DNA from: a virus
Reading direction: 5' to 3' (one strand)
Length of the DNA: 22,439 nucleotides
IMG/VR virus record: IMGVR_UViG_3300028920_001543
Coordinates: 1 to 22,439 of that record
The translations under genes were made by a program, and so were the position numbers. Shown in pieces: positions 2,065 through 22,171 of this stretch. The notes beneath the pieces were generated by a model. The model was not told the origin of the DNA, searched no databases, and saw only the letters and a list, made by a program, of their open reading frames with translations. The stretch's first letter is position 1. Each line of letters begins with the position of its first letter.

Positions 2065-2317
2065 GAATCACGGTGGTTTTGCTGGGGATGGTGTAGACAT
2101 TTCGTTAGTATCGATGCGGCCCGGCGTGATAGATCGCCGGGTTTTTCATGTATTTCGGCCGATCTGCGATCCGAGTTTCACAGGGAAGGAGTTCATGGGG
2201 ACCACGGAGTGGTTTTCCGTGACGTGTGAGTGTTGTCTTTCTTTACGTCCTGATCGGGATGATGAGGCGGAGAAGGACATGGAGCGGTTTTTGGAGGAGG
2301 TAGGTGGTGCTGAGTAG
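2033..2317 (+). CDS. Hypothetical protein, up to 94 aa (start uncertain)
   Basis: The frame ends at 2317 and overlaps the next gene's start, which supports translation of its 3' part. That part encodes a cysteine-containing, acidic C-terminus (TEWFSVTCECCLSLRPDRDD, then EAEKDMERFLEEVGGAE). The start at 2033 has a good GGAGG 9 bases upstream and gives 94 residues. A second possible start at 2195, behind AAGGAG at only 3 bases, gives 40 residues. The choice matters because a perfect terminator-like hairpin with a T5 run (2120-2146) lies inside the longer frame. Either the hairpin is an attenuator within a gene, or the true gene is the short one after a terminator. No family is recognised. Confidence 0.45.
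   Translation: MVRETAVHYIRNHGGFAGDGVDISLVSMRPGVIDRRVFHVFRPICDPSFTGKEFMGTTEWFSVTCECCLSLRPDRDDEAEKDMERFLEEVGGAE
2120..2146 (+). terminator. Rho-independent terminator-like hairpin
   Basis: Perfect arms CCCGGCG (2120-2126) and CGCCGGG (2135-2141) enclose an 8-base loop and are followed directly by TTTTT (2142-2146), the canonical intrinsic-terminator form. It would end transcripts carrying the small genes from 1715 on, or act as a partial attenuator ahead of the membrane-protein and packaging genes. It lies within the 94-residue reading of the gene ending at 2317, so one of the two calls may be wrong. Confidence 0.6.
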
Positions 2318-2729
2318 CCGCGTGAAATCTCTGATTTTGGTGATTTGTTGCGGTTGTTTGCTGGTGTCTCCAGCGTGGGCGGCGCTGCAGCTGACCTACA
2401 CGTGGGATCCGCCGACGACTGGTTCACCTGTGGTGGAGTATCAGGTGGAGTGGAAGACGGGTTCTGGTGATTTCGAGCCGCTGGGGGTGGTTACCGAGGC
2501 GTTGATCCGGGTAGATGTACCTGACGGTACACAGGGTTTGGTTTTGCGGGTAGCTGGTCGGGATCAGTGGGGTCGTCAGGGGTTGTGGTCGCCGCCGAGT
2601 GTACCTTGGACTGACGACGGTACTCCTGGGCCGCCTACTGAGCCTTCGATCATCGAGATCATTGCCTTGGCTGGGTTCGGTTTGCTAGCGCTGTTGATCG
2701 GGACAGTGTGGAAGGTGAGGCGGCGATGA
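2307..2729 (+). CDS. Secreted fibronectin-III-like protein with C-terminal membrane anchor
   Basis: A 140-residue protein with a clear Sec signal peptide (VKSLILVICCGCLLVSPAWA, cleavage after AWA). One FnIII-like beta-sandwich follows at about residues 28-110 (LQLTYTWDPPTTGSPVVEYQ; VEWKTGSGDFEPL; RVAGRDQWGRQG). A proline-rich linker then leads to a membrane segment (IIEIIALAGFGLLALLIGTV) and the stop-transfer tail KVRRR. The FnIII domain should face the periplasm or exterior. GTG at 2307 is chosen because GGAGGAGG lies 6 bases upstream; GTG at 2304 is the alternative. It overlaps the upstream gene's stop, and its own stop forms an ATGA with the next start, so translation is probably coupled. 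FnIII domains bind proteins or glycans; host-surface binding or superinfection exclusion are inferences. Codons are T/G-rich. Confidence 0.7.
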   Translation: MLSSRVKSLILVICCGCLLVSPAWAALQLTYTWDPPTTGSPVVEYQVEWKTGSGDFEPLGVVTEALIRVDVPDGTQGLVLRVAGRDQWGRQGLWSPPSVPWTDDGTPGPPTEPSIIEIIALAGFGLLALLIGTVWKVRRR

Positions 2730-3669: not shown

Positions 3670-3981
3670 ATGAGAGCGCTGTTGATTTCCATGCTGGTCG
3701 GCGTCCTGCTGGTCTGTGGGCTGGCTTACGCTTGGCAGACTCACCCGATCCAGTACCTGGCCGCTGACGGCGTTCTGGATCTGACCTCCGTCACTCACGA
3801 CGGGTACTTCCTGTACTCAACGCAGAATGCGTGGGTGACCCGCTATTTCCGGTCTCAGTCGGCAGACGCTATTCCGATGTTCCTGCCGGCTGGCGAGTGG
3901 TTCTTCGTCGATGCGCAGACAGACAGTCTGGCCGGCGTTGGCCTGAGTGACACCCTCTGGGTCCACCCGATGTCGAGGTAA
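3670..3981 (+). CDS. Small secreted protein, 103 aa
   Basis: A 103-residue protein with a clear signal peptide (MRALLISMLVGVLLVCGLAY, cleavage probably after AYA at residue 21). The mature part of about 80 residues looks beta-rich (VLDLTSVTHDGYFLYSTQNA, then WVTRYFRSQSADAIPMFLPA and GEWFFVDAQTDSLAGVGLSD). This could be a small jelly-roll or beta-sandwich, but no family is recognised. The ATG at 3670 has AAGGAG 8 bases upstream; an arginine-rich extension to 3568 lacks a site and would bury the signal peptide. It precedes the giant secreted protein by 6 bases, and both start with ATGAGAGC-CTG, encoding MRAL. A co-secreted partner or shared surface structure is inferred. Confidence 0.65.
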   Translation: MRALLISMLVGVLLVCGLAYAWQTHPIQYLAADGVLDLTSVTHDGYFLYSTQNAWVTRYFRSQSADAIPMFLPAGEWFFVDAQTDSLAGVGLSDTLWVHPMSR

Positions 3982-3987
3982 AGAAAG

Positions 3988-6900
3988 ATGAGAGCACTGC
4001 GCCCGCTTGCCTCGATCTTGTTTCTGGGGGTCCTGTTGGCTTGCGCTGTGGGTACTGGATCGAGGGCTGACGGCCCTCATGGCATGTATCCAGAAGGCTA
4101 CTGGCCGACGAATTTCAAGCGCTCGTCGAACCCGTTCTCCCCGATCGTAGCACAGAAGATGCTGGTCACCCCCGTCGAGGGGACCGATCACATCCTGGAC
4201 TACTATGACAACCTCGAGTCGACTGCTGACTCGGTTGTCGATATCGGAACCGACTACACGGGCTACTTCGCGTATGGCCTGTGGTCTACCCAGTCGACCG
4301 ACTCGTTCGCGATCAACAGCTCCGCCCAGGGCAAAAACTTCCGCTACGGCATGTGGGCCCCCTCGCCTGACTCCCTCAACCCATGGGACGATAGCGGTGT
4401 CCACTACGGCTCGATGGTCTACATCGACTGGAAGTCGGTCCTGCCACCTGGCTCGGACGTGATCTCCGCGAAGCTGCACTTCACTGCCGGCGGCCAGCAG
4501 AATATCGGCGCTCAGGATACCCTCGTTGCTGTTCTGATGACCAATCCAGCCGATTCCGCCTGGTATCGCTACGTTGGCGCCAATACCAGAGACTTCATGT
4601 CCTTCTGTTCCCTGATGTACCAGCGCCAGGGCGTTAACGATGCTGCAGCCGGCGATCAGGCTACCCTCACTTCTCGCGGCTTCCCCGCTAAAAGCGGCCC
4701 GGCCTGGGATCCGGAGATCACCAGCCGCACCCGTGAATGGGACTGGGGCGACTACGCCGACTGGTCCTGTGACGGCGGAGACCAAGGCTTCGGTACTGCA
4801 TCACACACAGCAGACAGCCTGTTTACTATCGATATCACAAATTGCGTCCGAGCCGCGAATGCTGGGCGCGTGAACAACGGCATCTTCCTGTACAAGAAGG
4901 ACGATTCTTCAATCGGGTATACCCAAATACGGCACTTCGACCCGACCTCGCCGGATGATAACGAGTTCGCGTTCTTCGAGATCGACTACGTCACCAGGGT
5001 CCAGAAGCCGCGCTGGCCGAACCAGGCCAAGTACGCCTTCGTCTTCTGTACCGACGACTGGCGCCGCAACGCGAATATGGCCTACAAGGCCGTTTTTGAT
5101 ACGTTCGATAGCCGGATCCCCGGTGGCGCGAAGATGACCATCTTCGGGTCTGCCAAGCACTACCCGAACGCTAACGTGCTGACCCTCGGCCAGGTACAGC
5201 AGTTCATCCGAGACGGCCACGAGGTCGGCTTCCACTCCATGTGGCACGCGAACGATGCCGGCGGCCTCGACGGATTCACCAGATACCGCGTGGCCACCGA
5301 CGAGATGATAGTCAATGAGTATACACGGGGCATGTACCCGGACACGCTCACTGCATCTGCTACCAACTGGGACAGCCTGCTATACGACTCCGACCCCGAA
5401 TGGCTGTACTACGTACTGGAAGACTCTCTCGGCGTGGACTATCGCAATCACCCGCTGGTCGGCAAGTCGATGGCCCTGCCGTTCAACATGTTTGACCCGG
5501 CCACCCTGCAGGCGATGGCCTACCACAACTACCTTGGGGTGCGCGGCAACCCGGTTGGCAACCTCACCCTGGCAGACGGGAACCGAACCTTCGGCGTGAA
5601 GGCCACTACTGGGTTCGCTGATACCGACACCATGTGGGCCTGCTGGGGCAACAGTCACGCTGAGTTTGTTAACCCGGTGAACGCGACCCTGTTGCCGCCC
5701 TGGGTTTCTTCAAATGCCCTCGTGGGCGACAGCACGGTCGCTGCAACGGTGGACGACTACATTATCAAGAACCGGGTGCGGCGCTGGGCGCGGCAGGTAT
5801 CTGCGGGCGACTTCGGTGTGTTTGGCATCTACACGCACGATCTGCGCACCGAGGCCGGCAAGACGGGCGGCTATAGCAACGGTATCGACGCTGCCGAGCT
5901 GGAGGTCATCCTCCAGGCCGTCGAGGAGACTGGCGGCTGGGTCTGTACCGTGAGCGACATGAAGCGCTGGATGCGTTCGCAGGCGGTCGCCGACTCGATT
6001 CCCAGCGGATGGGGCCAGGACGGCACTGCCTGGGACTTCACCGCCGAAGACGACAACTGGTATCTGCCGATGACGCCCGCTGGGCGAGACACCAACCGCG
6101 GCATGCTCTGGACGGCGGCGATCTCTCGAGTTACCGAGGCCGGCGAGTATCCGTATCTATCTGGTGCCTGGCGCGGGGGCCCGGCCCTGGACCGGAAGCT
6201 CCACTACAAGTGGCAGCCGCACTATGACTCTCCGACCCACCACTCGCGAGTTACTACCTGGACGGAGCTGACCGCGGCCTCGTCCTCGTTCGCTACCGCC
6301 GGCCTGATTGGCGACAACATTCCGCTCATGGCCTTTTCGGGCGACACGATCTCGTGCCGGCTGCTTTTGCAGGAGAGTGGAGGCGCCTGGTTCGCTGCGG
6401 ACAGCCTGACCTATGTCGTGCCGACCCTGCCATCGATCGTCACTCCGCTGGCTGCGGCGCCAACGCCCGAGGTTGGCCGCATGTGGCGGACCAACTACGA
6501 CCTGGACTGGTACTCGGCCGGCGCAACTCCGGCTAACCCGATGCCGGACTCGTCGACTAACGACTACCTCGACTACAAGGTCTTGCAGTGGAACCTATGT
6601 GAGGCCAGCAACTACGACATGGACCCGATCCAGTGGATCAAGAACACCCGCTCGATGTACAACGACGACTTCATGCCGGCGCTCTATGTCCACTACTTCG
6701 GGTTCCGCAAGCCGTGGGGGTCTGCCTCGGCCGGCAGCTACCAGCGCCGCATGCATGACGCACTGATTCCGTATCGACCGGTCTACATCAATGGCGACAC
6801 CGTGAGCCACTACTTCAGCGGCGACAGCAACGTCTACTGGCTCTTGAACCCCCTTCAGGAGGCCGGGATCGACTCGCTGATCTCCATCCAGATCGAGTTC

Positions 6901-9900
6901 ATGTTCCGCAACGGCTGGCTCGATTTGCCGTACACGGGCGTGTTCATCGACTGGGCTTACAGCGACTACCCGAACTGGCCGTGTGACGGCGGCGACTGCA
7001 CTGACTTCCTTGACCTGGACGTCGACGGGACAGGGCACGGGTCTGATGCCAACGAGCAGGCGGCCTACGATACGGCGGTCGATTCGTTCTTCACCAAGCT
7101 CAGGCGCAGACTGGACCACGTCAGGGGCGACGAGACTGCCCTGATCGTCAACAACGGCGATGCTGCGGAGCAGCGGGCCTCCGCAGGTGCCCTGCTCGAC
7201 GGCGAGATGATCGAGCACATCTTCAACGAACGCATGAACACCACCGAGGAGTTCGAGGCGCTCGGGCCCAGCGGGACCTACCAGCAGCGGTTCACCAATG
7301 CGCGAGTAGACCCGCCGCTTTTGATCCTGGCCGAGCAGGACACGCTCGACGGGGTCCGGGTGTCAACGGCGCTGCTGGCTGAATGCGGTGCCAACATGAG
7401 CCAGACCACCAGCACGAGCTGGTCGGATATCGCCCACCAGTACGGCTACGACTGGTTCGCGGCCAGCGATCCAGTTTTCGGGCCGGTGTACAGCACGGTT
7501 GGGTCTGAATGTACGGCGTACAGCGTCTACCCGAGCGGGTGGATTGTCGCCATGAACTTCGAGGAGGGTAGCTACACCAAGAACACGGTTCCGTACCCGT
7601 ACATCGTGTACCAGAACAACGAAGCCAACGCGATCTACGACGGCAACTGGGGAACCCTGCTGCTGGATCAGCCGGACGTTTCGATCTCGCACCCTGACAC
7701 AACCACCACGACCACGATCGGCCGTGGTGCGACCCTCGATGCAACTGCGGACTCCGTGATGGTCCTGGTGTCCAAGGATTTCGCGGCCGGTGTCATCGAT
7801 ACGTACTACTCGACCGATGACGACAGCATCCAGAACATCCGGCTTCTTCTGGGCGAGGGCGACCACATCCTGGCCACCAAGTCCATGCGGACCATTCTGG
7901 ACGGCTACGCCGGACCGTATTATTCGGCGGCCGACACGGACACTGTGCGTCTGGAGCGCGGCAGTGTCATGGAGATTGACAACGTCTCCGGGACCCTGGA
8001 GCACGGGCAGACGCTCACGATCACTGGCGTTGGCTTCGGGACGAAGGCATCGGCGCCCCCCACGGTGTTCGACTCGTTCGAGTCGGGGACCAACAACCAG
8101 GTGTTCGGGCCGAGCCCTATCGGCGATGTCGGGGAGTACTCGGTCTGGGGCAGCGAGGGCGGCAACTTCCGCCGTCCGCGCTACAGGGAGAACAGCGAGC
8201 GCGCCTGGGGCGGCGACTTCTACGCCGAGGAGCATCCACTAAGTGAGGCCGATTTTTTCACCGGCTTCTACAAGATGCACCACGACTGGGAAGATAGCTT
8301 CGGTACCAAGACGATGTATGCCTCGATGAAGGTCAGGATTACCACGAACGCTCAGGGCGGCCCGTGGGGCAGCGGCTCGTTTGTTAACCCATCCGTGTCA
8401 CAGAAGCTCTTCCGGCTGACGTCTTACAACCGTGGGCCGGGAATGCCGCCGCAGCATGGCAATCCGAACCTGTGGCTGGCGAAGTCCGGCGGCACGAGCG
8501 TGGTCGGGTACTACCTGCTCAACTCTGGCATCGGTGCCCAGGGGGCATACCTGGAGCACAACTGGTCCGACTGGACGGGCATGAATGACGTCTGGGTCGA
8601 CTGCCACCTGTGGATGAAGATCGGCACCGACGGCAACACCGATGGCCTGGCCGGGCACTTCTGGAAGGCCGAAAACGGCCTAGCGTTCAGCGTTCGCGAC
8701 TCGACTGGCATGGAGACCTATACCGAGGAGGGGCCCGATTACCCCGACGAGCTGCCGCTCATTCGTGGCCTGCGGGCCGTGGCTTGGTCCTGCCAGCCCG
8801 GCGGCTGGGAGCCTGACGAGCTGTACCTGGCGTGGGACAACCTGTATGCCGACACCTCGCTGGCCCGCGTGATCATCGGTGACAACTCCGAATACTACAC
8901 CTGCCGGACCTGGGAGCCGCAGCCGCCGACCGCCTGGGCGGATGACGAGATCCAGGTCACGGCCAACCTGAACCACTGGTTCGACAGCGAGGGCGCCACC
9001 ATCGACACGCTGTACGCGTGGGTGGTCGACACAGACAACAACGTCAGCGACCAGGACACCACGGTGGCCGGCAAGCAGGGCAAGCCGATCGCCATGACCC
9101 CGGACAGGCCGACGTTCATCAGCACGGTTGCCGGTGAGTTCAAGACGGCCTCGGCCTGTAGCGTGACGATCCGGGGCTTCAGCTTCGGTACAAAGAACCC
9201 GGCGGCTCCGCTGATCTGGGAGGACTTCGACGACTTCGCGGCGGAGTCGCGCCTGGACTCGACCCTGGCTGGCGGACAGCGGTGGAGCATTTACAGCGAC
9301 AACGATAGAGGTTTCGACATCCCACGAGCCTGCGACTGGTCGCATCGAATCAAGTACACTGGCGACATCATCGCGCGGTTCATTTATCCAGAACACAGCC
9401 ACCCGGACAACTACCAACGCGACATCATCTATAAGCCGCTCTACGGAATGTCGGCCGATCCAGACGTCGACTACCTCGGGCCGAGCGACCGTTTCTACTG
9501 GTCGATGTGGAGTCTTTCCGATTTCCCCGGCCCAGAAACGGCCGACCCCGAAACGAAGCAGTGGAAGCGTGCTCGCCTATCAGACGGGCCATACAACGCT
9601 GACACCGAGCCTTATATCGGCTGGTTCTGGCATAGAGCGTTACCAGACCCGCCGAATAACAACCCCCCCGGCCGTCCCTTTATGTGCTGGACCGACGACC
9701 AGCTGGGCTCAACAGGCTCGGCGTACTGCCCCGACCTGGTCGGCGGGCAGGCGTCGCAACAGTTCGTGTACGATATCCCCGATACGGGTGTATGGAACTG
9801 CTTCGAGATGTACGGCCAGCTTGACAGCGGAGCACAACAGTGCGATGCGCGAGTTTGGGCCTACATGAACCAAGAGGCGATCGTTGAGGAGAACGACCCG

Positions 9901-10308
9901 AAGGCCGCAAGCGTCGGGCTGTTTATCGACGATGAAAGTGGTCCCGGTGAAATGTGGGTTGGTGAGTATATACAGCAAGCCTCGCATCAATTCGAGTGCT
10001 TCTGGGATGACATCTATTTCGATGATACCTGGGCTCGGGTGATACTTGGCAACGCCGAGCAATACGACGATTGCACCTATATCCAGCTCCAGATCCCATA
10101 CTACTGGGACGACAACTTGATCTCGTTCAAGGTCAACCTGGGCGAGTGGCCGTCGGGGTACACCGGTTACCTGTACGTCGTGACCGCAGACGGGGAGTTC
10201 TCGGATGCGGATCTGTCGACGCCGGCAATTGACGGCAAGAGAGTGCTGATCTGGACTGGAGAGGGCGAGAAGCCCGGCGACGACGAGTTCGAGGAGTGGG
10301 CACCGTAG
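3988..10308 (+). CDS. Giant secreted protein: polysaccharide deacetylase-like, glycosidase-like and duplicated lectin-like modules
   Basis: A 2106-residue exported protein. Residues 1-28 form a signal peptide, either lipoprotein (LLAC, C19) or SPase I type (SRA before D28). Residues about 45-330 resemble a DNRLRE-type beta-sandwich (YIDWKSVLPPGSDVISAKLH). Residues about 340-660 resemble NodB polysaccharide deacetylases: TDDW (D356, D357), HSMWH (H416, H420) and YTHD (H617) match the metal-binding and C-terminal histidine motifs. Residues about 825-1220 resemble putative TIM-barrel glycosidases, with GVFIDW (D988) and LLDGEMIEHI (E1073). Two homologous modules of about 380 residues follow (1328-1705 and 1708-2106). 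Each opens IPT-like (VGFGTK / FSFGTK) and ends with WDNLY/WDDIY, ARVI and a short beta domain, perhaps lectin-like. Likely role: modifying surface polysaccharide. Whether it is free, lipid-anchored or virion-bound is unknown. It lies unusually between terS and terL. Confidence 0.75.
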   Translation: MRALRPLASILFLGVLLACAVGTGSRADGPHGMYPEGYWPTNFKRSSNPFSPIVAQKMLVTPVEGTDHILDYYDNLESTADSVVDIGTDYTGYFAYGLWSTQSTDSFAINSSAQGKNFRYGMWAPSPDSLNPWDDSGVHYGSMVYIDWKSVLPPGSDVISAKLHFTAGGQQNIGAQDTLVAVLMTNPADSAWYRYVGANTRDFMSFCSLMYQRQGVNDAAAGDQATLTSRGFPAKSGPAWDPEITSRTREWDWGDYADWSCDGGDQGFGTASHTADSLFTIDITNCVRAANAGRVNNGIFLYKKDDSSIGYTQIRHFDPTSPDDNEFAFFEIDYVTRVQKPRWPNQAKYAFVFCTDDWRRNANMAYKAVFDTFDSRIPGGAKMTIFGSAKHYPNANVLTLGQVQQFIRDGHEVGFHSMWHANDAGGLDGFTRYRVATDEMIVNEYTRGMYPDTLTASATNWDSLLYDSDPEWLYYVLEDSLGVDYRNHPLVGKSMALPFNMFDPATLQAMAYHNYLGVRGNPVGNLTLADGNRTFGVKATTGFADTDTMWACWGNSHAEFVNPVNATLLPPWVSSNALVGDSTVAATVDDYIIKNRVRRWARQVSAGDFGVFGIYTHDLRTEAGKTGGYSNGIDAAELEVILQAVEETGGWVCTVSDMKRWMRSQAVADSIPSGWGQDGTAWDFTAEDDNWYLPMTPAGRDTNRGMLWTAAISRVTEAGEYPYLSGAWRGGPALDRKLHYKWQPHYDSPTHHSRVTTWTELTAASSSFATAGLIGDNIPLMAFSGDTISCRLLLQESGGAWFAADSLTYVVPTLPSIVTPLAAAPTPEVGRMWRTNYDLDWYSAGATPANPMPDSSTNDYLDYKVLQWNLCEASNYDMDPIQWIKNTRSMYNDDFMPALYVHYFGFRKPWGSASAGSYQRRMHDALIPYRPVYINGDTVSHYFSGDSNVYWLLNPLQEAGIDSLISIQIEFMFRNGWLDLPYTGVFIDWAYSDYPNWPCDGGDCTDFLDLDVDGTGHGSDANEQAAYDTAVDSFFTKLRRRLDHVRGDETALIVNNGDAAEQRASAGALLDGEMIEHIFNERMNTTEEFEALGPSGTYQQRFTNARVDPPLLILAEQDTLDGVRVSTALLAECGANMSQTTSTSWSDIAHQYGYDWFAASDPVFGPVYSTVGSECTAYSVYPSGWIVAMNFEEGSYTKNTVPYPYIVYQNNEANAIYDGNWGTLLLDQPDVSISHPDTTTTTTIGRGATLDATADSVMVLVSKDFAAGVIDTYYSTDDDSIQNIRLLLGEGDHILATKSMRTILDGYAGPYYSAADTDTVRLERGSVMEIDNVSGTLEHGQTLTITGVGFGTKASAPPTVFDSFESGTNNQVFGPSPIGDVGEYSVWGSEGGNFRRPRYRENSERAWGGDFYAEEHPLSEADFFTGFYKMHHDWEDSFGTKTMYASMKVRITTNAQGGPWGSGSFVNPSVSQKLFRLTSYNRGPGMPPQHGNPNLWLAKSGGTSVVGYYLLNSGIGAQGAYLEHNWSDWTGMNDVWVDCHLWMKIGTDGNTDGLAGHFWKAENGLAFSVRDSTGMETYTEEGPDYPDELPLIRGLRAVAWSCQPGGWEPDELYLAWDNLYADTSLARVIIGDNSEYYTCRTWEPQPPTAWADDEIQVTANLNHWFDSEGATIDTLYAWVVDTDNNVSDQDTTVAGKQGKPIAMTPDRPTFISTVAGEFKTASACSVTIRGFSFGTKNPAAPLIWEDFDDFAAESRLDSTLAGGQRWSIYSDNDRGFDIPRACDWSHRIKYTGDIIARFIYPEHSHPDNYQRDIIYKPLYGMSADPDVDYLGPSDRFYWSMWSLSDFPGPETADPETKQWKRARLSDGPYNADTEPYIGWFWHRALPDPPNNNPPGRPFMCWTDDQLGSTGSAYCPDLVGGQASQQFVYDIPDTGVWNCFEMYGQLDSGAQQCDARVWAYMNQEAIVEENDPKAASVGLFIDDESGPGEMWVGEYIQQASHQFECFWDDIYFDDTWARVILGNAEQYDDCTYIQLQIPYYWDDNLISFKVNLGEWPSGYTGYLYVVTADGEFSDADLSTPAIDGKRVLIWTGEGEKPGDDEFEEWAP

Positions 10309-12277: not shown

Positions 12278-14245
12278 ATGCAGCGCGTTAACACCCGCAC
12301 AGCCCCGAATGCGTCAGAGTTCGTCAAGCTCTGGTTTCACCGCATTGATAAGGGCATAGCCAGGCGCGACGAAGAGCAGAAGATCTGGGACGCGAACGAG
12401 AAGTTCGAGGACATGCAGGTCCGCGCCACGATAGGCGTCGAGGGCTATGACGACGTCTGCATCAACAAGTGCGGCGCTTGGGTGGAAACGCGTGTTGCCA
12501 GCGTTGTGTACCACAGCCCGTATTTCAAGATGAAACCCATCAACACCGAGGGCTACGACCCGGTGCCGATCGTGGGCGTCGACGGCCAGCCGCGCCAAGT
12601 CTACCGCTACAAGGTGGCGGAAGGTCTTCTGAATGACATCGCCCGGCGGATAGGCGTGAAGCGCCAGCTGCGCCGCGGCGTCCACGCGGCCCAGTTCGGC
12701 TACGGCGCCTGGATGATCGGCTACACCGCCGACTTCGAGGGCGAGGATATCGGACTCCCGAAAGAAGTCGACGGGATGCCGAATCCCGAGGTCTACATGT
12801 ATGACCCGGTCACGGCGCTGCCGATGGTCGACGAGAACGAAGAGCCCATCCTGCGCCCCGAGTACCAGCGTCCCTTGCGCGAGCAGTGGTTCTGGGACTG
12901 GGTGTACTTCCGGCGCCTGATCGTCGACCCCGACGGCGAGAACGAGTTCCGCCAGCACCGCTGGATCGTGTACGAAGAGCTGGTTCCGCTGAAGGAGATC
13001 AAGGCCAACCCGCTGTACCGGAACACCTCGAACCTGAAGGCCACGCACACCGGCTACACGTCCGAGCAGGAAGACGACCACAAGTGGAAGACGGCCCACG
13101 TCGAGGATGACTTCATCCAGCAGCACGAAGACATGTGTCGCGTGTTCCACTGCTGGGATCTCGAAGAGCAAGAGTACGCCGTGGTCGTCGATGGCCATCA
13201 CCGGCATCTGCGCCGGGTGAATGTCAAGGACGCGTTTCCTGGCGTTGAGCACAGCCCGTACATCTTCTACCGGCCCAAGGAAAGAAACGGGCATTTCTAC
13301 CCCCGGCCCCCGCTAACGGATTTGGCCCCGGTCAACGAGATCTACGACCTGATGCGGCAGCTCGAGATTACGGCTGGGCGCCGCGTAGCGCGCAAGCTCA
13401 TGGTGGAGGCAGACGTCTGGGGCGAGGACCAACGTGCCCAGCTGCGCTCTAACGTCGACGTGGAGGTAATCCCCATTGAGTCTACCCGGCCGCTTTCCGA
13501 GACCATCATGGAAGTCCCGCTGTCCCCCTTGAGCAGTGACGTGTGGAACAACACGGCCCTGACAGCACAGGATTTCAATGAGGTCGGAGGACAGCCGGGA
13601 GAAAGCCGTGCCAGACCCGATGCAAAAACCGCAACGCAGGCCAAGGCCATGGTCGGTTACGACTCACTGCGCGTCGACTACCAGCGCAACCTCCTGAAGG
13701 AGGCGATTATCGAGGGCGGCGAGAAGCTGTGGAACTCGATCAAGCACAACATGACGCTCAGGCAGGCCGTCATGCTGGAGGGCAAGGAAGGGGAAGGAGC
13801 GTTCCTTGCCTTTGTCGACCCGGAAGAGATCGGCGGCGACTACATGATCGAGGTGGACGTTGAGGAGATGGCCCCGCAGGACAAGAACCTGGTTGCGGCC
13901 AACACGCTCAACGCCATCGGGGTCTTCTCCCAGGGCATGCAGACCGGGCTGTGGCGCAGCGAGGCGCTGCTACGGTCGACGCTCGACAACATCGGCATGT
14001 CCGACCCACGCATCGTCGAGGAGCTGGTCAAGATCGCCAACGAGCAGTTCCAGCTGCAACAGCAGCAGATGCAGATGGCGGCCCAGAGAGCCCAGCAGGA
14101 CCAGCAGATGAAGCAACAGGAGCAGCAGCGGCGCGACATGGAGACGGTCGCCAACCTGGCTGGCTCGATGCCCGCGGCAGAGGATGAGGCCCATGCGGCA
14201 CGCCAGCACCGCGACGACCCCGGCATGCTAGGAGGTCGGTACTAA
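12278..14245 (+). CDS. Portal protein
   Basis: A 655-residue protein of the size expected for portals of short-tailed phages. The portal forms the dodecameric ring at the capsid vertex through which terminase pumps DNA. Portal-like features include the N-terminal WFHRIDKGIARRDEEQKIWD, the wing/stem segments (VEVIPIESTRPLSETIMEVP; DFNEVGGQPGESRARPDAKT) and a glutamine-rich coiled C-terminus (residues about 590-620, FQLQQQQMQMAAQRAQQDQQ), as in P22-type barrels. The start lies one base after the zinc-ribbon stop, with AAGGAG about 11 bases upstream. The stop overlaps the next start as TAATG. Assignment rests on size, Q-rich end and position between terL and scaffold/capsid; it is a strong call. 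Confidence 0.88.
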   Translation: MQRVNTRTAPNASEFVKLWFHRIDKGIARRDEEQKIWDANEKFEDMQVRATIGVEGYDDVCINKCGAWVETRVASVVYHSPYFKMKPINTEGYDPVPIVGVDGQPRQVYRYKVAEGLLNDIARRIGVKRQLRRGVHAAQFGYGAWMIGYTADFEGEDIGLPKEVDGMPNPEVYMYDPVTALPMVDENEEPILRPEYQRPLREQWFWDWVYFRRLIVDPDGENEFRQHRWIVYEELVPLKEIKANPLYRNTSNLKATHTGYTSEQEDDHKWKTAHVEDDFIQQHEDMCRVFHCWDLEEQEYAVVVDGHHRHLRRVNVKDAFPGVEHSPYIFYRPKERNGHFYPRPPLTDLAPVNEIYDLMRQLEITAGRRVARKLMVEADVWGEDQRAQLRSNVDVEVIPIESTRPLSETIMEVPLSPLSSDVWNNTALTAQDFNEVGGQPGESRARPDAKTATQAKAMVGYDSLRVDYQRNLLKEAIIEGGEKLWNSIKHNMTLRQAVMLEGKEGEGAFLAFVDPEEIGGDYMIEVDVEEMAPQDKNLVAANTLNAIGVFSQGMQTGLWRSEALLRSTLDNIGMSDPRIVEELVKIANEQFQLQQQQMQMAAQRAQQDQQMKQQEQQRRDMETVANLAGSMPAAEDEAHAARQHRDDPGMLGGRY

Positions 14246-14724
14246 TGCCCTGGTACTCGTACCTGTGCCAGCACTGCGGCACGCTGACCGAGCTGCAGCA
14301 GTCCATCAAGGAACGGCACGACCATGCACTGTGCCGCGAGTGCGGCTTGCCGGCTGCCCGCGACTGGACGACGGACCTGCGCAGCGTGAGCCTGCAGGGA
14401 GACACGGTTGCCGGTGGTGTCAATTACGAGGGATACGACCAGGCGCTTGGTCAGCACATCAGGGGGCGCAGCCATTTGCGCGAGGTCATGAAGAGCCGAG
14501 GCCTGGAGTACTACGACCCGCCCAGCGAGGAGGCCGAGATATCGCGTGATATCAACTACTTGGTCGACCGTGGGGGGAGCAAGGATCCGCAGGGGAGGGA
14601 GGAGTTAAAGCAGCTCGCCAAGAAATCTGGTGAGCTACAAACAAAGAGGGCCTTCGAGAAGACCGAGAAGTCGGACAAGTTCAAGAAGATCCTCGAGCGC
14701 AAGATCGGCGAGGCCGATCTATAA
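14245..14724 (+). CDS. FmdB-like zinc-ribbon protein, 159 aa
   Basis: The N-terminus MPWYSYLCQHCGTLTELQQS with CQHC (C8, C11) and CREC (C30, C33) is the four-cysteine FmdB-type ribbon often found beside portal genes in phages. The remaining 120 residues carry a glycine/tyrosine segment (GGVNYEGYDQALGQHIRGRS) and a charged helical tail (KRAFEKTEKSDKFKKILERK). Translation is coupled to the portal gene (TAATG). The family's role in phages is not established; late-gene regulation or a head-assembly cofactor are both possible. The scaffold gene begins 14 bases after its stop. Confidence 0.75.
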   Translation: MPWYSYLCQHCGTLTELQQSIKERHDHALCRECGLPAARDWTTDLRSVSLQGDTVAGGVNYEGYDQALGQHIRGRSHLREVMKSRGLEYYDPPSEEAEISRDINYLVDRGGSKDPQGREELKQLAKKSGELQTKRAFEKTEKSDKFKKILERKIGEADL

Positions 14725-15682: not shown

Positions 15683-16750
15683 ATGGCTGTGAGCAATACC
15701 AATGCTCGTTCCTCCACTCTCGACGGACTTCTGTCCTCGACGTGGGACGAATATCACAAGGACGGTGAGTTCCAGGACGCGATCTTCAAGTCCAACTACT
15801 ACTTCTACAAGTTGTATCAGGCTGGACGCATCACGAAGAACTGCTCCGGAACTCTCTGCGCCGTCAACCTGATGTACGCCGAGAACGAGAACGCCCAGTC
15901 GGTCGGTCCGTACGACACGTTCGCGACGGACGCTACCGATGGGTTCACCCAGGCGCTTTATCCTTGGTGTGAGTACGTGGTCCCCGTGATCATCGACCGC
16001 ATCTCCAAGGTGAAGAACTCGGGCAAGGCCGCGATTGTCGATCTGGTGGACGCGAAGCGTCAGCAAGCCAAGATGACCGCGATCTCGCTCTTGAACAAGC
16101 ACCTGATGGACATCGAGGGCATCTCGGCGACCGCGACTGGCAACGGCGGCAAGAACATCTACGGCCTGCCACTGCTCGTTGCCTCGGCCAACACCTACGA
16201 CCCGGCCGGCATCGACACGTCGGCCAACACCTGGTGGGACAACAAGCGGAAGACCTGGGGCGACGTCGACTCGTACGCCGGCTTCCGTGCAGACGTCCAG
16301 GACACCTACCTGCAAGCGTCCGAGGGCCCCGGCGGTGCGCCGGACATCGGCGTTTGCGACCGGATCACCTGGGCCGCGTTCGAGCGGTCGATGATCGACC
16401 AGCGCCGGTACACCAGTGGTGAGAGCGCCTCGATGGGCTTCCCCACGATCATGTACTGGAAGTGTGAGGTCGGCTTCGACGAGCACGTTCCGGACCTGGC
16501 CGGCGGTGCCAACTGGGACGCCGCGGCTAGCCCGACCGGCACTGGCGAAGGAACGCTGTGGTTCGTCAACTCCAATTTCATGGAGCTGAAGGTCATGCGT
16601 GACTCCGACTTCGTGTCGACCGGGTTCATGCCGGCGCTGAACCAGCTCGCCAGCATCAACCATCTGATCTTCGCGGGTCAGCACGTGTGCTCCAACCGGC
16701 GCAAGCAGGCCGTCCTGCAGGCGATCGAAGGCTCCGCGTGCGTGAGCTAG
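15683..16750 (+). CDS. Major capsid protein
   Basis: A 355-residue capsid subunit. The N-terminus (NARSSTLDGLLSSTWDEYHK, then GEFQDAIFKSNYYFYKLYQA) and following segments (YPWCEYVVPVIIDRISKVKN; SGKAAIVDLVDAKRQQAKMT; LNKHLMDIEGISATATGNGG) match the pattern of a widespread HK97-fold capsid family of tailed phages. Gene order portal, scaffold, capsid, decoration agrees. GAGGGGGTGA lies about 10 bases before the ATG. No cleaved prodomain is apparent, consistent with a separate scaffold. Codon use is strongly C-ending and regular, as expected for the most expressed virion gene. Six cysteines, four in the C-terminal half, are somewhat many for a capsid protein. Confidence 0.9.
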   Translation: MAVSNTNARSSTLDGLLSSTWDEYHKDGEFQDAIFKSNYYFYKLYQAGRITKNCSGTLCAVNLMYAENENAQSVGPYDTFATDATDGFTQALYPWCEYVVPVIIDRISKVKNSGKAAIVDLVDAKRQQAKMTAISLLNKHLMDIEGISATATGNGGKNIYGLPLLVASANTYDPAGIDTSANTWWDNKRKTWGDVDSYAGFRADVQDTYLQASEGPGGAPDIGVCDRITWAAFERSMIDQRRYTSGESASMGFPTIMYWKCEVGFDEHVPDLAGGANWDAAASPTGTGEGTLWFVNSNFMELKVMRDSDFVSTGFMPALNQLASINHLIFAGQHVCSNRRKQAVLQAIEGSACVS

Positions 16751-17295: not shown

Positions 17296-17955
17296 ATGGG
17301 GCTAATACTTCCCGAGGTGACGGAGAAGATCCGCCGCCTCTTGCCGGGCACCGAAAACAGGTGGTCGGACGAGTATCTATACAAGCTCGTGCACATGGCC
17401 GACTGTGCCATCAAGGAGCGCGGCGAGACCCTGTGGGCCAGCGAGGAGATCGATCTGTACGCAGATACGATCTACTACGCCCTGCCCACTGACGTCATCC
17501 ACGTGCGTAGTGTCCAGTTCGCGATTGACGGCTCGTCCTATGAGCATTGGCTGGACAAGAAGACGTTCCGCGACCTCGATGAGCGCAGTCTGACCTGGTC
17601 GAAGGACCGCACTACGATTCCGGAGCTGTACGTGTTGATGTCGGCTCCCGGCACGAGCGCCTATTCCAAGATCTGTATCTATCCCGGCCTGTCTGCGGCG
17701 TCGAGTCAGAAGATTCGCGTCAATCACTTGTCGTGCTACCCGGACTACGGAGCCGCGGCCGTTGCGTCGACAGCCCCGGAATGGGTGCAGGTGCAGGTGT
17801 ATGTGCCGCACGTCATGGCCCTTCTATACGCCACCAGTCAGCCAGCGCTCGCTATTGAGTTCTGGGCCGAGTACATGAGGAACATCCGAAGGGTCAAGGC
17901 CACATACGCCCAGGACGGCCTTGAGACTCCGGTCAGGCTGGGGAATGCAGAATGA
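17296..17955 (+). CDS. Head-tail adaptor (neck) protein
   Basis: A 219-residue protein: an N-terminal helical part (GLILPEVTEKIRRLLPGTEN; RWSDEYLYKLVHMADCAIKE), a beta-rich middle (IDLYADTIYYALPTDVIHVR; LMSAPGTSAYSKICIYPGLS) and a C-terminal helical bundle (VQVYVPHVMALLYATSQPAL; AEYMRNIRRVKATYAQDG). This plan and the position behind the capsid genes match neck or 'structural' proteins that extend the portal ring before tail attachment. GAGG lies 8 bases before the ATG. The stop overlaps the next start as ATGA, so the two neck proteins are made together. A P22 gp4-like role is inferred. Confidence 0.65.
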   Translation: MGLILPEVTEKIRRLLPGTENRWSDEYLYKLVHMADCAIKERGETLWASEEIDLYADTIYYALPTDVIHVRSVQFAIDGSSYEHWLDKKTFRDLDERSLTWSKDRTTIPELYVLMSAPGTSAYSKICIYPGLSAASSQKIRVNHLSCYPDYGAAAVASTAPEWVQVQVYVPHVMALLYATSQPALAIEFWAEYMRNIRRVKATYAQDGLETPVRLGNAE

Positions 17956-18791
17956 CATACGCGCAGATCGCGGAGCGATTAAATGTGATGCTGTGGGGCA
18001 ATTCATCGTATTCGAGCACTGTGCCAAGGACACAGATCATGGGCTGGTTCGACGAGGTGGCCCAAGAGCTGGCCAGAGAATGTGGCCACATCGAGGACCG
18101 CTACGTGATCCCAGCTGAAGCCAACGTCGGGGAGTACGACTTGCCCGAGGGGTACCGCGAACTGCAGCGGTGCACCTACAACCTGAAGTACATGTACCCG
18201 ATCCGCGCCATCGAGCTGCGCCGGGTGGATTCTAAGTACAAAGAGCGAACGGGAGACCCAAGCTTTCGCTATACAGACGAGCTGAATCATCAAATAAAGC
18301 TGTATCCGACACCAACAGCTGGCGCGACCTACTTGTCGGAGAGCTACACGCCTGGCCGAGGAGCACTTGTGGCCCTCGACTCGACAACCACGCCTGGGCG
18401 CGGCGCGATCGTGGACGTGCTGTCCAGCGCCCCGCCGTCGTCTCAGCCGCCGCGTGGGGTGGTAGTAGACCTCATCCTGTCCAACCAGATCGAGGTCTTC
18501 TACAAGCACACAGGAGACGTGGAGGTGGGCGATGACGCCGAGCCCCCGGTGCCGGGCTGGGCGTGGCCGATCGTCCTGTACGGAGTCCTACAGAGGGCTT
18601 ACACGGCAGACACGAAGTTGCAGAACATCGAAGCCTCGAGGTTTTTCGGGGCGCTCTACGAAGACGGCAAGCGGCGCATTCGGGTGCGGTCCAACGACCG
18701 GGCGACTGCGCCCGAGGGGCGCAAGGAAGACAGCCTGCCACACAAGGCGGCTTACGACATCCGGCGCAGATGGCCCGAAACGATAGGATAG
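17952..18791 (+). CDS. Second neck/tail-adaptor protein with internal repeat
   Basis: A 279-residue protein coupled to the preceding adaptor (ATGA). It has the same general plan: helical N-terminus (AQIAERLNVMLWGNSSYSST; EVAQELARECGHIEDRYVIP), the motif EYDLPEGYRELQRCTYN, and a C-terminal helical part (IVLYGVLQRAYTADTKLQNI; ASRFFGALYEDGKRRIRV). In the middle, three short repeats PGRGALVAL, PGRGAIVDV and PPRGVVVDL are set in a Ser/Thr/Pro-rich stretch (about 18348-18473), which looks like an inserted, expanded loop. The tail ends KAAYDIRRRWPETIG. It is likely a neck ring or head-completion component joining portal and tail hub. The exact family is not recognised. Confidence 0.6.
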   Translation: MTYAQIAERLNVMLWGNSSYSSTVPRTQIMGWFDEVAQELARECGHIEDRYVIPAEANVGEYDLPEGYRELQRCTYNLKYMYPIRAIELRRVDSKYKERTGDPSFRYTDELNHQIKLYPTPTAGATYLSESYTPGRGALVALDSTTTPGRGAIVDVLSSAPPSSQPPRGVVVDLILSNQIEVFYKHTGDVEVGDDAEPPVPGWAWPIVLYGVLQRAYTADTKLQNIEASRFFGALYEDGKRRIRVRSNDRATAPEGRKEDSLPHKAAYDIRRRWPETIG

Positions 18792-18794
18792 GAA

Positions 18795-20078
18795 ATGAAC
18801 GCCCTTCGCAAGACCTGGTTTCTCTGGGCGCCGCTTCTGTTCGTGGTGCTCGTAGTCGGGCTCGACATCAGGGAGATGCAGCGTGAGGCTGAAGCGCAGA
18901 CGGTGACGGGAATTTGGCGCCGGACGGGCCTAGAAGACCTGTTCTATGGCGGCACAGACCAGGCTTTCATCTACGGCTCCGGGGACACGGTCACCACCCA
19001 GGGCCTGCTGCCGCTGGATGCTCGCTGGATGGGTGTCCAAGCCGGGGCCAACGTCACCGACAGCCTGCAGGCGGCGATTGACTCGGCCGCGGTGTGGGAA
19101 ACGGCGGTCTATCTGCCCGGCGGGTCGTACACGGTGGACTCCCTGGACGTCCCTGACGGGATGGTGCTGTATGGCGACGGCATGGGCCAGACCCAGATCA
19201 ACCATGCCCCCGGCTATACTTGCCCGCTGTTCTACAACTCCGCCGACATTCAGGACGTGCAAATAAGAGACATCGGCATTGTGATGACGGCCAACAGCGA
19301 GGCGGCCATCAAGTTCGACGACTGTGCTCTGGGGGTGTTCGAGCGCATCAGGGTCGCGGTTGGAGGATGTGACAACGCGGCCTTCATCTTGGACAGGACC
19401 GGCGGCAGTGGATACTACAACACCTTCTACGACTGCTCTGTGGCTGGCGCCGACACTCTGACCTACGGCTGGAAGTTCTTGTCGGGCGCCAACGAGAACC
19501 GCCTGATAGCCTGTCGCACCACAGGAGTAGACACAGCGGTACACATCGCTAACGCCAACGGCATCCACATCTCCGATTGCTCGTTTGAGCAGTTCGAGTG
19601 CGGCATCCGGGTGCCCAACACGGCGTCGGACAACACCTGGATAACCAACAACCGGTTCGAAGTGAACCGGGCCTGGGGCGACTGGGGTACGGGCGTTCTA
19701 GTCCCCGGCTTTAACACGGTAACCCGCCTCATGGGCAACTGGTATTCTGGCGTGGCGACCGAACTAGACGACAGCTCTCTTGTCGCCTTGCAGGTTCTCG
19801 ATCATTCAGTAACCAGCCTGCGCACGCTCAAGTTTGGTGCGCACGCAGATGCCGGGATGGCCAGCTCTCTGAACATGCGCAACTACAATATCAGGATGAA
19901 TGCGGCCTCTACTGACCCGATGATAATCTGGGGCACAGCCCCGCCTAACGGCAGCGTGTCAGCAGTTGGTGGCAGCATCTACCTGCGCGAGGACGCGAGC
20001 GGCTCCTCTGACTCGACCTTCTACATCAAGACCGGCACGGGCAACACCGGTTGGGTGTGTGTGAACGACGGGATGTAG
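18795..20078 (+). CDS. Tailspike-like beta-helix protein with N-terminal membrane/signal segment
   Basis: A 427-residue protein. Residues about 7-24 are strongly hydrophobic (TWFLWAPLLFVVLVVGLD) after a basic MNALRK, followed by REMQREAEAQ: either a signal anchor or a signal peptide cut after AEA. Residues about 75-300 form a pectate-lyase-3-type right-handed beta-helix (VQAGANVTDSLQAAIDSAAV; YLPGGSYTVDSL; GIHISDCSFEQFECGIRVPN). The C-terminus (GSIYLREDASGSSDSTFYIK; GTGNTGWVCV) matches a closing motif common in phage tailspikes and fibres. It sits between neck and tail-hub genes, where receptor-binding or depolymerase spikes occur. The membrane segment is odd for a virion spike, which normally folds in the cytoplasm and attaches through an N-terminal domain. 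Polysaccharide binding or cleavage is probable. Confidence 0.75.
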   Translation: MNALRKTWFLWAPLLFVVLVVGLDIREMQREAEAQTVTGIWRRTGLEDLFYGGTDQAFIYGSGDTVTTQGLLPLDARWMGVQAGANVTDSLQAAIDSAAVWETAVYLPGGSYTVDSLDVPDGMVLYGDGMGQTQINHAPGYTCPLFYNSADIQDVQIRDIGIVMTANSEAAIKFDDCALGVFERIRVAVGGCDNAAFILDRTGGSGYYNTFYDCSVAGADTLTYGWKFLSGANENRLIACRTTGVDTAVHIANANGIHISDCSFEQFECGIRVPNTASDNTWITNNRFEVNRAWGDWGTGVLVPGFNTVTRLMGNWYSGVATELDDSSLVALQVLDHSVTSLRTLKFGAHADAGMASSLNMRNYNIRMNAASTDPMIIWGTAPPNGSVSAVGGSIYLREDASGSSDSTFYIKTGTGNTGWVCVNDGM

Positions 20079-20080
20079 CC

Positions 20081-22171
20081 ATGAAGGTGTTCGGCACAGA
20101 CAGGCTCATGGGGATGCTGTCGGCGCCGGCTGACAACATCATCCCTGATGACTTTGGGCAGGAGGTCACCAACTACGACCACAGCGCCCTCGGGCTGCTC
20201 GAGCGGTCGAAGCTGAACCTCGAGACGGCCTATGGTGGCAACGGCGGCTTCAGCGACATCCACGTCGACCAGAACACCGGCTACTTCTACTACTGCTCCG
20301 GGTCTGTTGTTGGCACCGACGATCCCGATGGGCCAGAGGACCTTGAGGTCCTGTATTCCGGGGGCTGCCCGCAGGCCAGCGAGTCGTACCCGAACTTCGT
20401 GTCACACCGCAACGCCATTTACGTGCTGGACTGCTGCCGGCCCGGTTTCGCCACCGACCGGAACTGGGCTATCGATGGCGCGGTCTGGCGAGCCATGGGT
20501 CCGCTCGAGTACACGATTCCGTTTACATTCATCTCGCCGCAGGGAACCCACACCGTAGAAGAGGTGACATCTGGCAACGCGATCACTGACGTTGACTTCA
20601 CCACCGAGGCCGGCAAAACCATCGTGACGTTTACCTCGGCACATGGTCTGTCCAGCGGCGACAGGATCTATATCGACTCGTCCATGGCCGGCGCAGAGCG
20701 GCTGGAAAACCGCTGTTACACCGTCTACTACAAGGACGCTGACGAGATCTACCTGCGTGACGCAGACGGCAACGACATCGACGGCACGAGCTACACTGCC
20801 TGGTCAAGCGGCGGGCTGGTGTACAAGGACGGCAACGGCCGCGTCGGCGGCTCGTACCGCTACGCGCTGACGTGGCGGGTGACCATGCCGTCGGGCAAGG
20901 TCATCGAGAGCGACCTACAGTACATCTACCCGGACGGCAGCAAGAACTGGCTGGACTACGATTTCAGCCTGTTCGTTACCACCGGACCGCAGGAGAAGGT
21001 CAGTCTCAAGATCGACAAGATCCCCCTGACCACGGTCCAGGACTACATCTACACCGGCGGAGTGTCTCCCCCCGTCCTGGGCACCGACGTGTTGGTCACG
21101 GCCAGGATCTGGCGCACCAAGGCCGACGACGACGACTTCTATCTGATGACCACCGAGGCCCACGCCTTTGTCGTCGGCAACACGGGCTCGTTCGAGGTCT
21201 ACGACACGTTTCAGGATGGCGATCTCGGGGCGCTGTACCGCTACAACCTCGGAGACAGCCAGGCAGCGCCGGCCGCAGAGATGGGCGCCAGCATGGGGGC
21301 CCGCCTGTACCTGGTGTCGAAAGACAACCCCAACCGTCTGTACATCAGCGAGGCCGGGCGCCCCGAACACTTCAACCTCGACAACTATATCGAGCTTGAC
21401 GAGGAGATAACAGCGCTGGGCGTGCTCGGGCGATCGCTGATCATCTTCTCCCCGTCTCGGTCGTGGCGCTATGAGCATGCCACGGGTGTCGGGATCTTGA
21501 CCGAGACCGACTCTCGTGAGGGCTGCAGGTACCGCCGGGCAGTGGCCAGCACGCCGCATGGCCTGTTCTTCGCCAACGAGCGCGGAGCCTTCCTGCACGA
21601 CGGCGCCTGGGCCAGCGAGGTCAGCGGGGGTATCCGGGACGTCTTCACCGACAAGTCCGGCGGCGAGTGGTCCATGTGCTACTACGACAACGAGATCTAT
21701 CTCGCAGGGCGCAGCGGCACCAACCTGTGCCCGGTGCTTTCTATGCGCGACGAGAACCCGCGCTGGAGAACGCACAACTTCTACACGCAGCACGGCGTGG
21801 CTTCGCCCGGCCTTGACTTCATCGCCGCGGACTACCTGAACAACCGCCTTGTCGGTGGCACCTCGGGCGGCTACGTCGCAACGCTGTTCACGTCAGGGGA
21901 CGATGCCTCTGCGACCTTCGTCTCCAAGGCGTATGGCGACGGCACAACCCGACGGGCCTGGCGGGTAGAGATAGACTGCGAGGCCGATAGCGAGGAGATG
22001 GACGTCTACTTCAAGTCCAACCGCTCGGACTACACGCAGATCGCCACGAGCCAGGGCACGGAGGGCCGGCAGGTCGTTTGGGTTAGCACGCAAGATGTTG
22101 TGGGCGAGTGGTTCACGGTGAAAATACAGAACGCCAACAAGCTGTATGGCGTGAAGGTGCTGGTTTACTGA
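20081..22171 (+). CDS. Tail hub / nozzle protein, beta-propeller-like
   Basis: A 696-residue protein resembling the propeller-type hub or nozzle of short-tailed phages (P22 gp10 class, 'packaged DNA stabilisation'). Characteristic stretches are NPNRLYISEAGRPEHFNLDN, ALGVLGRSLIIFSPSRSWRY and VASTPHGLFFANERGAFLHD, then GAWASEVSGGI: propeller blades seen in many such proteins. Residues about 160-250 look like an inserted beta domain of the FCCH type (TIVTFTSAHGLSSGDRIYID; NRCYTVYYKDADEIYLRDAD), common as an add-on in phage tail proteins. The C-terminus (VYFKSNRSDYTQIATSQG; WFTVKIQNANKLYGVKVLVY) is beta-rich. The ATG at 20081 lies two bases after the spike stop with a weak ribosome-binding site, so coupling is likely. 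It would plug the portal and carry spikes or fibres. Confidence 0.75.
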   Translation: MKVFGTDRLMGMLSAPADNIIPDDFGQEVTNYDHSALGLLERSKLNLETAYGGNGGFSDIHVDQNTGYFYYCSGSVVGTDDPDGPEDLEVLYSGGCPQASESYPNFVSHRNAIYVLDCCRPGFATDRNWAIDGAVWRAMGPLEYTIPFTFISPQGTHTVEEVTSGNAITDVDFTTEAGKTIVTFTSAHGLSSGDRIYIDSSMAGAERLENRCYTVYYKDADEIYLRDADGNDIDGTSYTAWSSGGLVYKDGNGRVGGSYRYALTWRVTMPSGKVIESDLQYIYPDGSKNWLDYDFSLFVTTGPQEKVSLKIDKIPLTTVQDYIYTGGVSPPVLGTDVLVTARIWRTKADDDDFYLMTTEAHAFVVGNTGSFEVYDTFQDGDLGALYRYNLGDSQAAPAAEMGASMGARLYLVSKDNPNRLYISEAGRPEHFNLDNYIELDEEITALGVLGRSLIIFSPSRSWRYEHATGVGILTETDSREGCRYRRAVASTPHGLFFANERGAFLHDGAWASEVSGGIRDVFTDKSGGEWSMCYYDNEIYLAGRSGTNLCPVLSMRDENPRWRTHNFYTQHGVASPGLDFIAADYLNNRLVGGTSGGYVATLFTSGDDASATFVSKAYGDGTTRRAWRVEIDCEADSEEMDVYFKSNRSDYTQIATSQGTEGRQVVWVSTQDVVGEWFTVKIQNANKLYGVKVLVY

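Follow-up and report, generated by a model that had tools for sequence, protein, structure and literature searches.

In the textbook account, tailed phages are assembled in the cytoplasm, and the known beta-helix tailspikes of the P22 type are synthesized there and carry an N-terminal head-binding domain. Beta-helix spikes and signal peptides are each ordinary alone; the combination of a signal peptide with a virion fibre or spike is recurrent, and in the literature searched signal-peptide tail fibres as a class received passing mentions only. For Caudoviricetes, no description of a route of Sec export followed by extracytoplasmic assembly was found in that literature. In a paper on flavophages, proteins with pectin/alginate lyase domains and signal peptides were reported in Cellulophaga phages (PMC8776804).

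In Cellulophaga phage phi19:1 (NC_021799), signal peptides, scored here and below by our own hydropathy rule and not by SignalP, are present on gp101, gp102 (pectate lyase), gp103 (tail fiber) and gp104, and in phi10:1 (NC_021802) on gp91 to gp94, including gp93 (pectate lyase) and gp94 (tail fiber). All eight proteins carry the GenBank note 'annotation based on experimental MS/MS proteomics analysis', which is a database note on phages other than the one analyzed below, given without N-terminal peptides, and it is possible that a secreted protein co-purified. Altogether, signal peptides were found on eight of eight fibre/spike proteins versus none of 16 other virion proteins of the two phages (Fisher P 1.4e-6), the eight not being independent trials because their genes are adjacent and partly homologous between the phages. 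The explicit MS/MS note is attached to 12 of the 16 comparison proteins; for phi19:1 gp88 and gp96 and phi10:1 gp77 and gp80, the visible part of the note ends at 'part of structural virion'. By our reading of its sequence, phi19:1 gp104 (446 aa) continues from the signal peptide into a pectate-lyase-like start, and phi10:1 gp95, whose pectate-lyase annotation derives only from similarity, scored slightly below our threshold. The first 55 residues of gp86 of phi13:2 (Pachyviridae) equal those of phi19:1 gp102, and, as the two phages belong to different families, this module therefore moves between phages. The N-termini of phi13:2 gp86 and gp87 (L273, 33529-37843), of the signal-peptide pectate-lyase/fibre type, are shared with phi19:1 and phi10:1, which infect the same host species. 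No signal peptides were found on the structural proteins tested of phi38:1.

The locus compared with these systems lies in an IMG/VR fragment of 22,439 bases (the window) from a short-tailed phage, in which the spike gene, its neck- and hub-type neighbors, the capsid gene and the three genes for predicted exported proteins are on the plus strand. The structural module runs in the order portal candidate, FmdB-type zinc-ribbon gene, scaffold candidate, capsid, decoration candidate, two neck-type genes, spike, and hub/nozzle candidate. The major capsid protein (15683..16750) matches phrog_9953 (E 1e-41), as do the capsid proteins of the isolated Tunturiibacter (Acidobacteriota) phage Tunturi_1 and of the uncultured contig L082. 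The spike gene (18795..20078) encodes a tailspike-like protein of 427 aa with an export-type N-terminus, from an ATG at 18795 to a stop codon ending at 20078. Upstream are a neck/adaptor-type gene (17296..17955; phrog_399, E 1e-5) and a second neck/tail-type gene (17952..18791; phrog_399, E 1e-3, with a weak pairwise match to Mx8 p51, E 0.002), and downstream is a gene (20081..22171) that is a hub/nozzle candidate by a weak match to phrog_511 (E 7e-6) and by position. The placement of the spike between neck and hub genes in the initial annotation agrees with these assignments. The hub candidate had no pairwise BLASTP match to the gene at the same position of MW202489 and, like the 2106-aa protein described below, no homologues in IMG/VR. 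The neck-position gene of Mx8, BUCT555 and MW202489 directly adjoins or overlaps the one at the hub position, and therefore the spike gene looks like an insertion here. The zinc-ribbon protein of the window (14245-14724; PF09723 at cutoff) is encoded between the portal and scaffold candidates, and a similar ribbon-like ORF is found likewise between the portal and scaffold positions of L003 (8565-8927). Among the structural genes of this capsid relative, there is also a small ORF (12368-12661) ending in a fibre-like NGMVVYNETDNKFQGYENGAWANL motif.

Residues 86-299 of the spike (19050..19691) correspond to a right-handed, pectate-lyase-like beta-helix, with matches to Pfam families PF12708, PF13229 and PF05048. 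The PF12708 match scored 31.6 bits, above its cutoff of 27, and the NosD match 24.1, above 23.6; the Beta_helix match, at 25.5, was slightly below its cutoff of 25.9. The C-terminal fibre motif occupies residues 380-427 (19932..20075; GTAPPNGSVSAVGGSIYLREDASGSSDSTFYIKTGTGNTGWVCVNDGM), and within these last 48 residues a GS-Y-LR ... GTGNTGW arrangement (GSIYLREDASGSSDSTFYIKTGTGNTGW) is recognizable that is C-terminal in many phage fibres; annotated tail fibres and minor tail proteins end in the same motif. Both the pectate-lyase-like helix and the spike-type C-terminus that had been read from the sequence were thereby confirmed. By its predicted beta-helix domain and its place in a structural operon, the protein is classed as a probable pectate-lyase-like beta-helix tailspike. 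Residues 35-73 matched nothing in Pfam, PHROGs or NCBIfam. No close homologue of the whole spike was found in IMG/VR or, beyond the C-terminal motif, by tblastn of phage records; a PDB sequence search returned chance-level matches only, and AlphaFold2, run on the spike sequence alone, gave a poor model (mean pLDDT 38).

The interpretation of the N-terminus depends on the start codon. If translation began at the internal ATG at 18876 (Met28), an ordinary cytoplasmic spike would result, and this alternative, which had been named as the one that would remove the hydrophobic segment, does have an ATG with a purine-rich AGGGAG directly before it. However, AGGGAG abuts this ATG with zero spacing, and the 81 nt upstream keep in-frame coding-type codon usage: codons 1-27 have an in-frame coding score of 7.7 (5-95% range 0.2 to 20.9 in frame, −28.8 to −7.8 out of frame). 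In contrast, the ATG at 18795 follows the neck-gene stop codon (18789-18791) after a 3-nt gap and is preceded, at a distance of 6 nt, by an AGGA ribosome-binding site (18785-18788) adjoining that stop, the two together spanning 18785..18791. For these reasons a downstream start is highly improbable, and translation from 18795 is well supported.

The protein made from this start begins with MNALRKTWFLWAPLLFVVLVVGLDIREMQREAEAQTVTG. Residues 1-34 (MNALRKTWFLWAPLLFVVLVVGLDIREMQREAEA; 18795..18896) form a predicted Sec signal peptide, with a charged MNALRK n-region (R5, K6), a hydrophobic core at about residues 8-23, the small residues A32 and A34, and an AEA↓QT junction (the arrow marks the predicted cleavage site). 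The best 17-residue hydropathy is 2.43 at residue 9 (KD13 2.84 from residue 9), so that the strong hydrophobic helix noticed behind MNALRK is real. Across 3652 windows of 17 residues from the other structural proteins from 10296 onward and from the spike itself starting at Met28, the maximum was 1.49 and none reached 2.0; 35 of 20,000 composition shuffles of the spike reached 2.43 near the N-terminus. The Sec/SPase I layout of charged n-region, core and small residues at −3 and −1 is present. A short polar c-region is absent; about 11 residues, several of them charged (DIREMQREAEA), lead from the core to AEA↓Q, which is untypical for a signal peptide without disqualifying it. Because of this long, charged stretch, the signal peptide may stay uncleaved.

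An uncleaved signal-anchor would keep the beta-helix attached to the inner membrane on its outer side as a surface element, for example for exclusion. The c-region speaks for such an anchor, as does the AlphaFold2 helix over residues 4-34, whose block pLDDT is 62-83 as far as residue 30 and falls below 50 beyond it. We nevertheless regard it as improbable: an AEA↓QT site follows the core, most of the relatives compared have short, classical cleavable signal peptides, and, if the host has two membranes, a spike held at the inner one would presumably miss its surface substrate. Moreover, an A/G/S↓Q junction occurs in 24 of the 33 hydrophobic N-termini compared, AEA↓QT included, in a set that we assembled and that is no random sample. 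Exposure of a glutamine by signal peptidase is a rule described in Bacteroidetes (PMC10367356), and glutamine at the cleavage site was remarked for Porphyromonas phage proteins of unknown function in the same paper. The glutamine at +1 of the predicted cleavage fits this rule, which is one of Bacteroidetes and may not be that of the host. The recurrent junction and the rule favour Sec export and cleavage. The 'membrane anchor' in the heading of the initial annotation is accordingly less likely than a cleavable signal peptide, since the AEA↓Q site follows the core and the junction recurs; the N-terminus resembles a Sec signal peptide with AEA↓QT at its end rather than a virion anchor. The helix could, as a further alternative, be an attachment or ejection element that acts in the cytoplasm and the particle and is no export signal, in line with the position of the gene in the tail operon. 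The signal-peptide layout, the A↓Q junction common to fibres of unrelated phages, and the lack of such a helix in the 16 comparison proteins from phi19:1 and phi10:1 virions make this even less probable than the anchor.

The assumption of the initial annotation that membrane insertion is out of place for a virion spike is not supported either. Eight proteins of phi19:1 and phi10:1 have clear Sec signal peptides and carry MS/MS notes, and the opposition between membrane-inserted protein and virion spike therefore fails. By analogy with such phages, we infer both export and a virion location for the spike of the window.

Similar proteins are encoded by Acidobacteriota phages. Residues 4-116 of the L082 fibre match gp12 of the isolated phages Tunturi_1 and Tunturi_2. 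Tunturi_1 has Sec-type signal peptides on gp12, gp13, gp14 (annotated tail spike), gp16 and gp17 (annotated virion structural protein), and its portal, capsid and neck proteins are without one. In this genome (PP887698) the signal-peptide fibre/spike genes begin directly after the neck gene, and in L082 the signal-peptide fibre gene likewise follows a neck-type gene, with one small ORF between. In the siphovirus Tunturi_4, gp113 and gp114 have signal peptides, and the tail fibre gene gp111 (L265, 32077-35172) would gain one (MNRISKAIGLCALALSVGSSYGQ) from an in-frame start codon located 357 nt before the annotated start. No signal peptide was found among the structural genes tested of Tunturi_3. 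The main text of the paper on these phages does not mention signal peptides and names proteomics only as future work (PMC11924767).

For uncultured contigs, IMG/VR was scanned for the codon pattern of GTGNTGW, and at least 108 ORFs with the wider motif, a sample, were examined. A clear hydrophobic N-terminal signal, that is, a hydropathy score of 2.3 or more, was present in 5 of the 108 motif ORFs listed (L021, L026, L115, L082, L091); the next score among them, 2.08, came from a sequence unlike a signal peptide. L026 and L115 are identical in their 50 N-terminal residues and in length, and were taken as the same protein. Motif and signal peptide were also found together in Verrucomicrobia L147 (from an internal ATG, next to a gene that is tail-hub-like by eye), in L258 from the same genome, and in Pedosphaera L181, where the neighbor is tape-measure-like by eye; a Pseudomonadota example (L260) has no signal peptide from the called start. 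L214 and L230, with motif and signal peptide, may be bacterial surface proteins and were left out of the phage cases, and the hydropathy hits L109 and L114 were unlike signal-peptide fibres. Phylum-wide surveys with a motif model matched 2 of 289, 1 of 299 and 1 of 297 genomes, too few for rates, and the tighter pattern KTGTGNTG yielded one locus, a fibre-like ORF without a signal peptide. The bacterial contig L218 (6-4974) encodes two consecutive large signal-peptide proteins of 862 and 790 aa, one of them with GTGNTGW. From these comparisons, we infer that the spike of the window probably belongs to a recurrent class of signal-peptide fibres and spikes in tailed phages of Bacteroidota, Acidobacteriota and Verrucomicrobiota.

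As the initial annotation remarked, the spike has parallels among other proteins of the window with signal-peptide-like starts. They comprise a predicted exported protein (2304..2729) with a signal peptide, an fn3-like domain and a C-terminal transmembrane segment followed by KVRRR; a small predicted exported protein (3670..3981) with the signal peptide MRALLISMLVGVLLVCGLAYA; and a 2106-aa protein with a predicted signal peptide (3988..10308), encoded between the small and large terminase genes. The fn3-like domain of the first, a type I membrane protein, matches phrog_31 (central tail fiber J; E 5e-8). For the 2106-aa protein, Pfam, NCBIfam and PHROGs gave no match and the PDB none that was credible; part of it (FCTDDW ... 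HEVGFHSMWH) resembles a polysaccharide deacetylase by eye.

The main rival to a Sec-exported tailspike is an exported free enzyme or decoy that stays outside the virion, is made during infection as a secreted or surface-bound depolymerase, and removes capsule or receptors, helps progeny to get free or restricts superinfection. Its signal peptide, the three further predicted exported proteins in the genome, one of them of 2106 aa, and the flavophage lyase-domain proteins with signal peptides (PMC8776804) would all suit such a protein; the GH32 enzymes of phages were rejected as a precedent of secreted depolymerases, since they have no signal peptide (PMC4595243). However, the gene is part of the head-tail operon, with neck genes before it and the hub candidate after it, the C-terminal motif is one that annotated tail fibres and minor tail proteins also have, and proteins of similar make-up with signal peptides are on record as constituents of virions, so that we consider a free enzyme unlikely, if a serious contender. 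The earlier proposal of an exported depolymerase thus holds for the export-type N-terminus, which is combined with a tailspike-like beta-helix body; that the protein is an enzyme is possible.

Taken together, we lean, with modest confidence, toward a beta-helix tailspike that binds a receptor, degrades polysaccharide or does both, and that uses the Sec pathway of the host and is assembled or released outside the cytoplasm. Translation from 18795 would yield the Sec-signal-peptide-like N-terminus, as the sequence supports. Sec would then export the chain, and signal peptidase would cut at AEA↓QT, leaving an N-terminal glutamine. To judge from the relatives, the mature spike would fold at the cell surface or in the periplasm, to be taken up by virions at or after lysis, and surplus spike would also serve as a free depolymerase or receptor-clearing protein. 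Against the Sec-tailspike reading stand the lack of a homologue of the spike beyond the C-terminal motif and the occurrence, in the same host groups, of fibres without signal peptides (Tunturi_3, phi38:1). The generalization that some tailed phages export tail fibres or spikes via Sec and assemble them onto virions outside the cytoplasm, in the periplasm or after lysis, is put forward tentatively, with less confidence than the reading of this one spike. If true, a phage can have its receptor-binding components produced and folded beyond the cytoplasm, perhaps with disulphide bonds, and its adsorption proteins may have a second function as secreted enzymes. The fibre class with Sec signal peptides would then span unrelated phages of the three phyla, and signal-peptide genes in phage genomes should not automatically be taken for host-derived cargo or auxiliary metabolic genes. 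The question of extracytoplasmic assembly is directly testable in the cultured phages phi19:1 and Tunturi_1.

Among known systems, secreted and SAR endolysins (fOg44 Lys44; phiKMV type) are phage proteins that use the host Sec, as is proposed for the spike, but they are lysis enzymes and not spikes; a SAR-type helix was rejected for the spike, which is without a muralytic domain (no lysozyme or amidase match). P22-type tailspikes share the right-handed beta-helix body, whereas the spike of the window has a predicted export signal in the N-terminal place. The L026/L115 protein (601 aa) has the signal peptide and the C-terminal GTGNTGW motif, with a Beta_helix match in L026 and no significant similarity of L026 to the spike outside the motif. 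L082 (604 aa) is likened to the spike by signal peptide, motif and capsid family, not by a beta-helix body. Phages phi19:1 and phi10:1 differ from the window as Assiduviridae with tape-measure genes and a Bacteroidota host, with no GTGNTGW seen; their gp101-gp104 and gp91-gp94, encoded after the tape-measure and hub-position genes and recorded as identified by MS/MS, resemble the spike in having a signal peptide and a fibre or pectate-lyase-type body, a likeness by architecture rather than by sequence match. Tunturi_1 has several such genes instead of one, and those tested have no Pfam domain; like the window, however, this podovirus (PMC11924767) combines a phrog_9953 capsid with a signal-peptide fibre/spike encoded after the neck gene.
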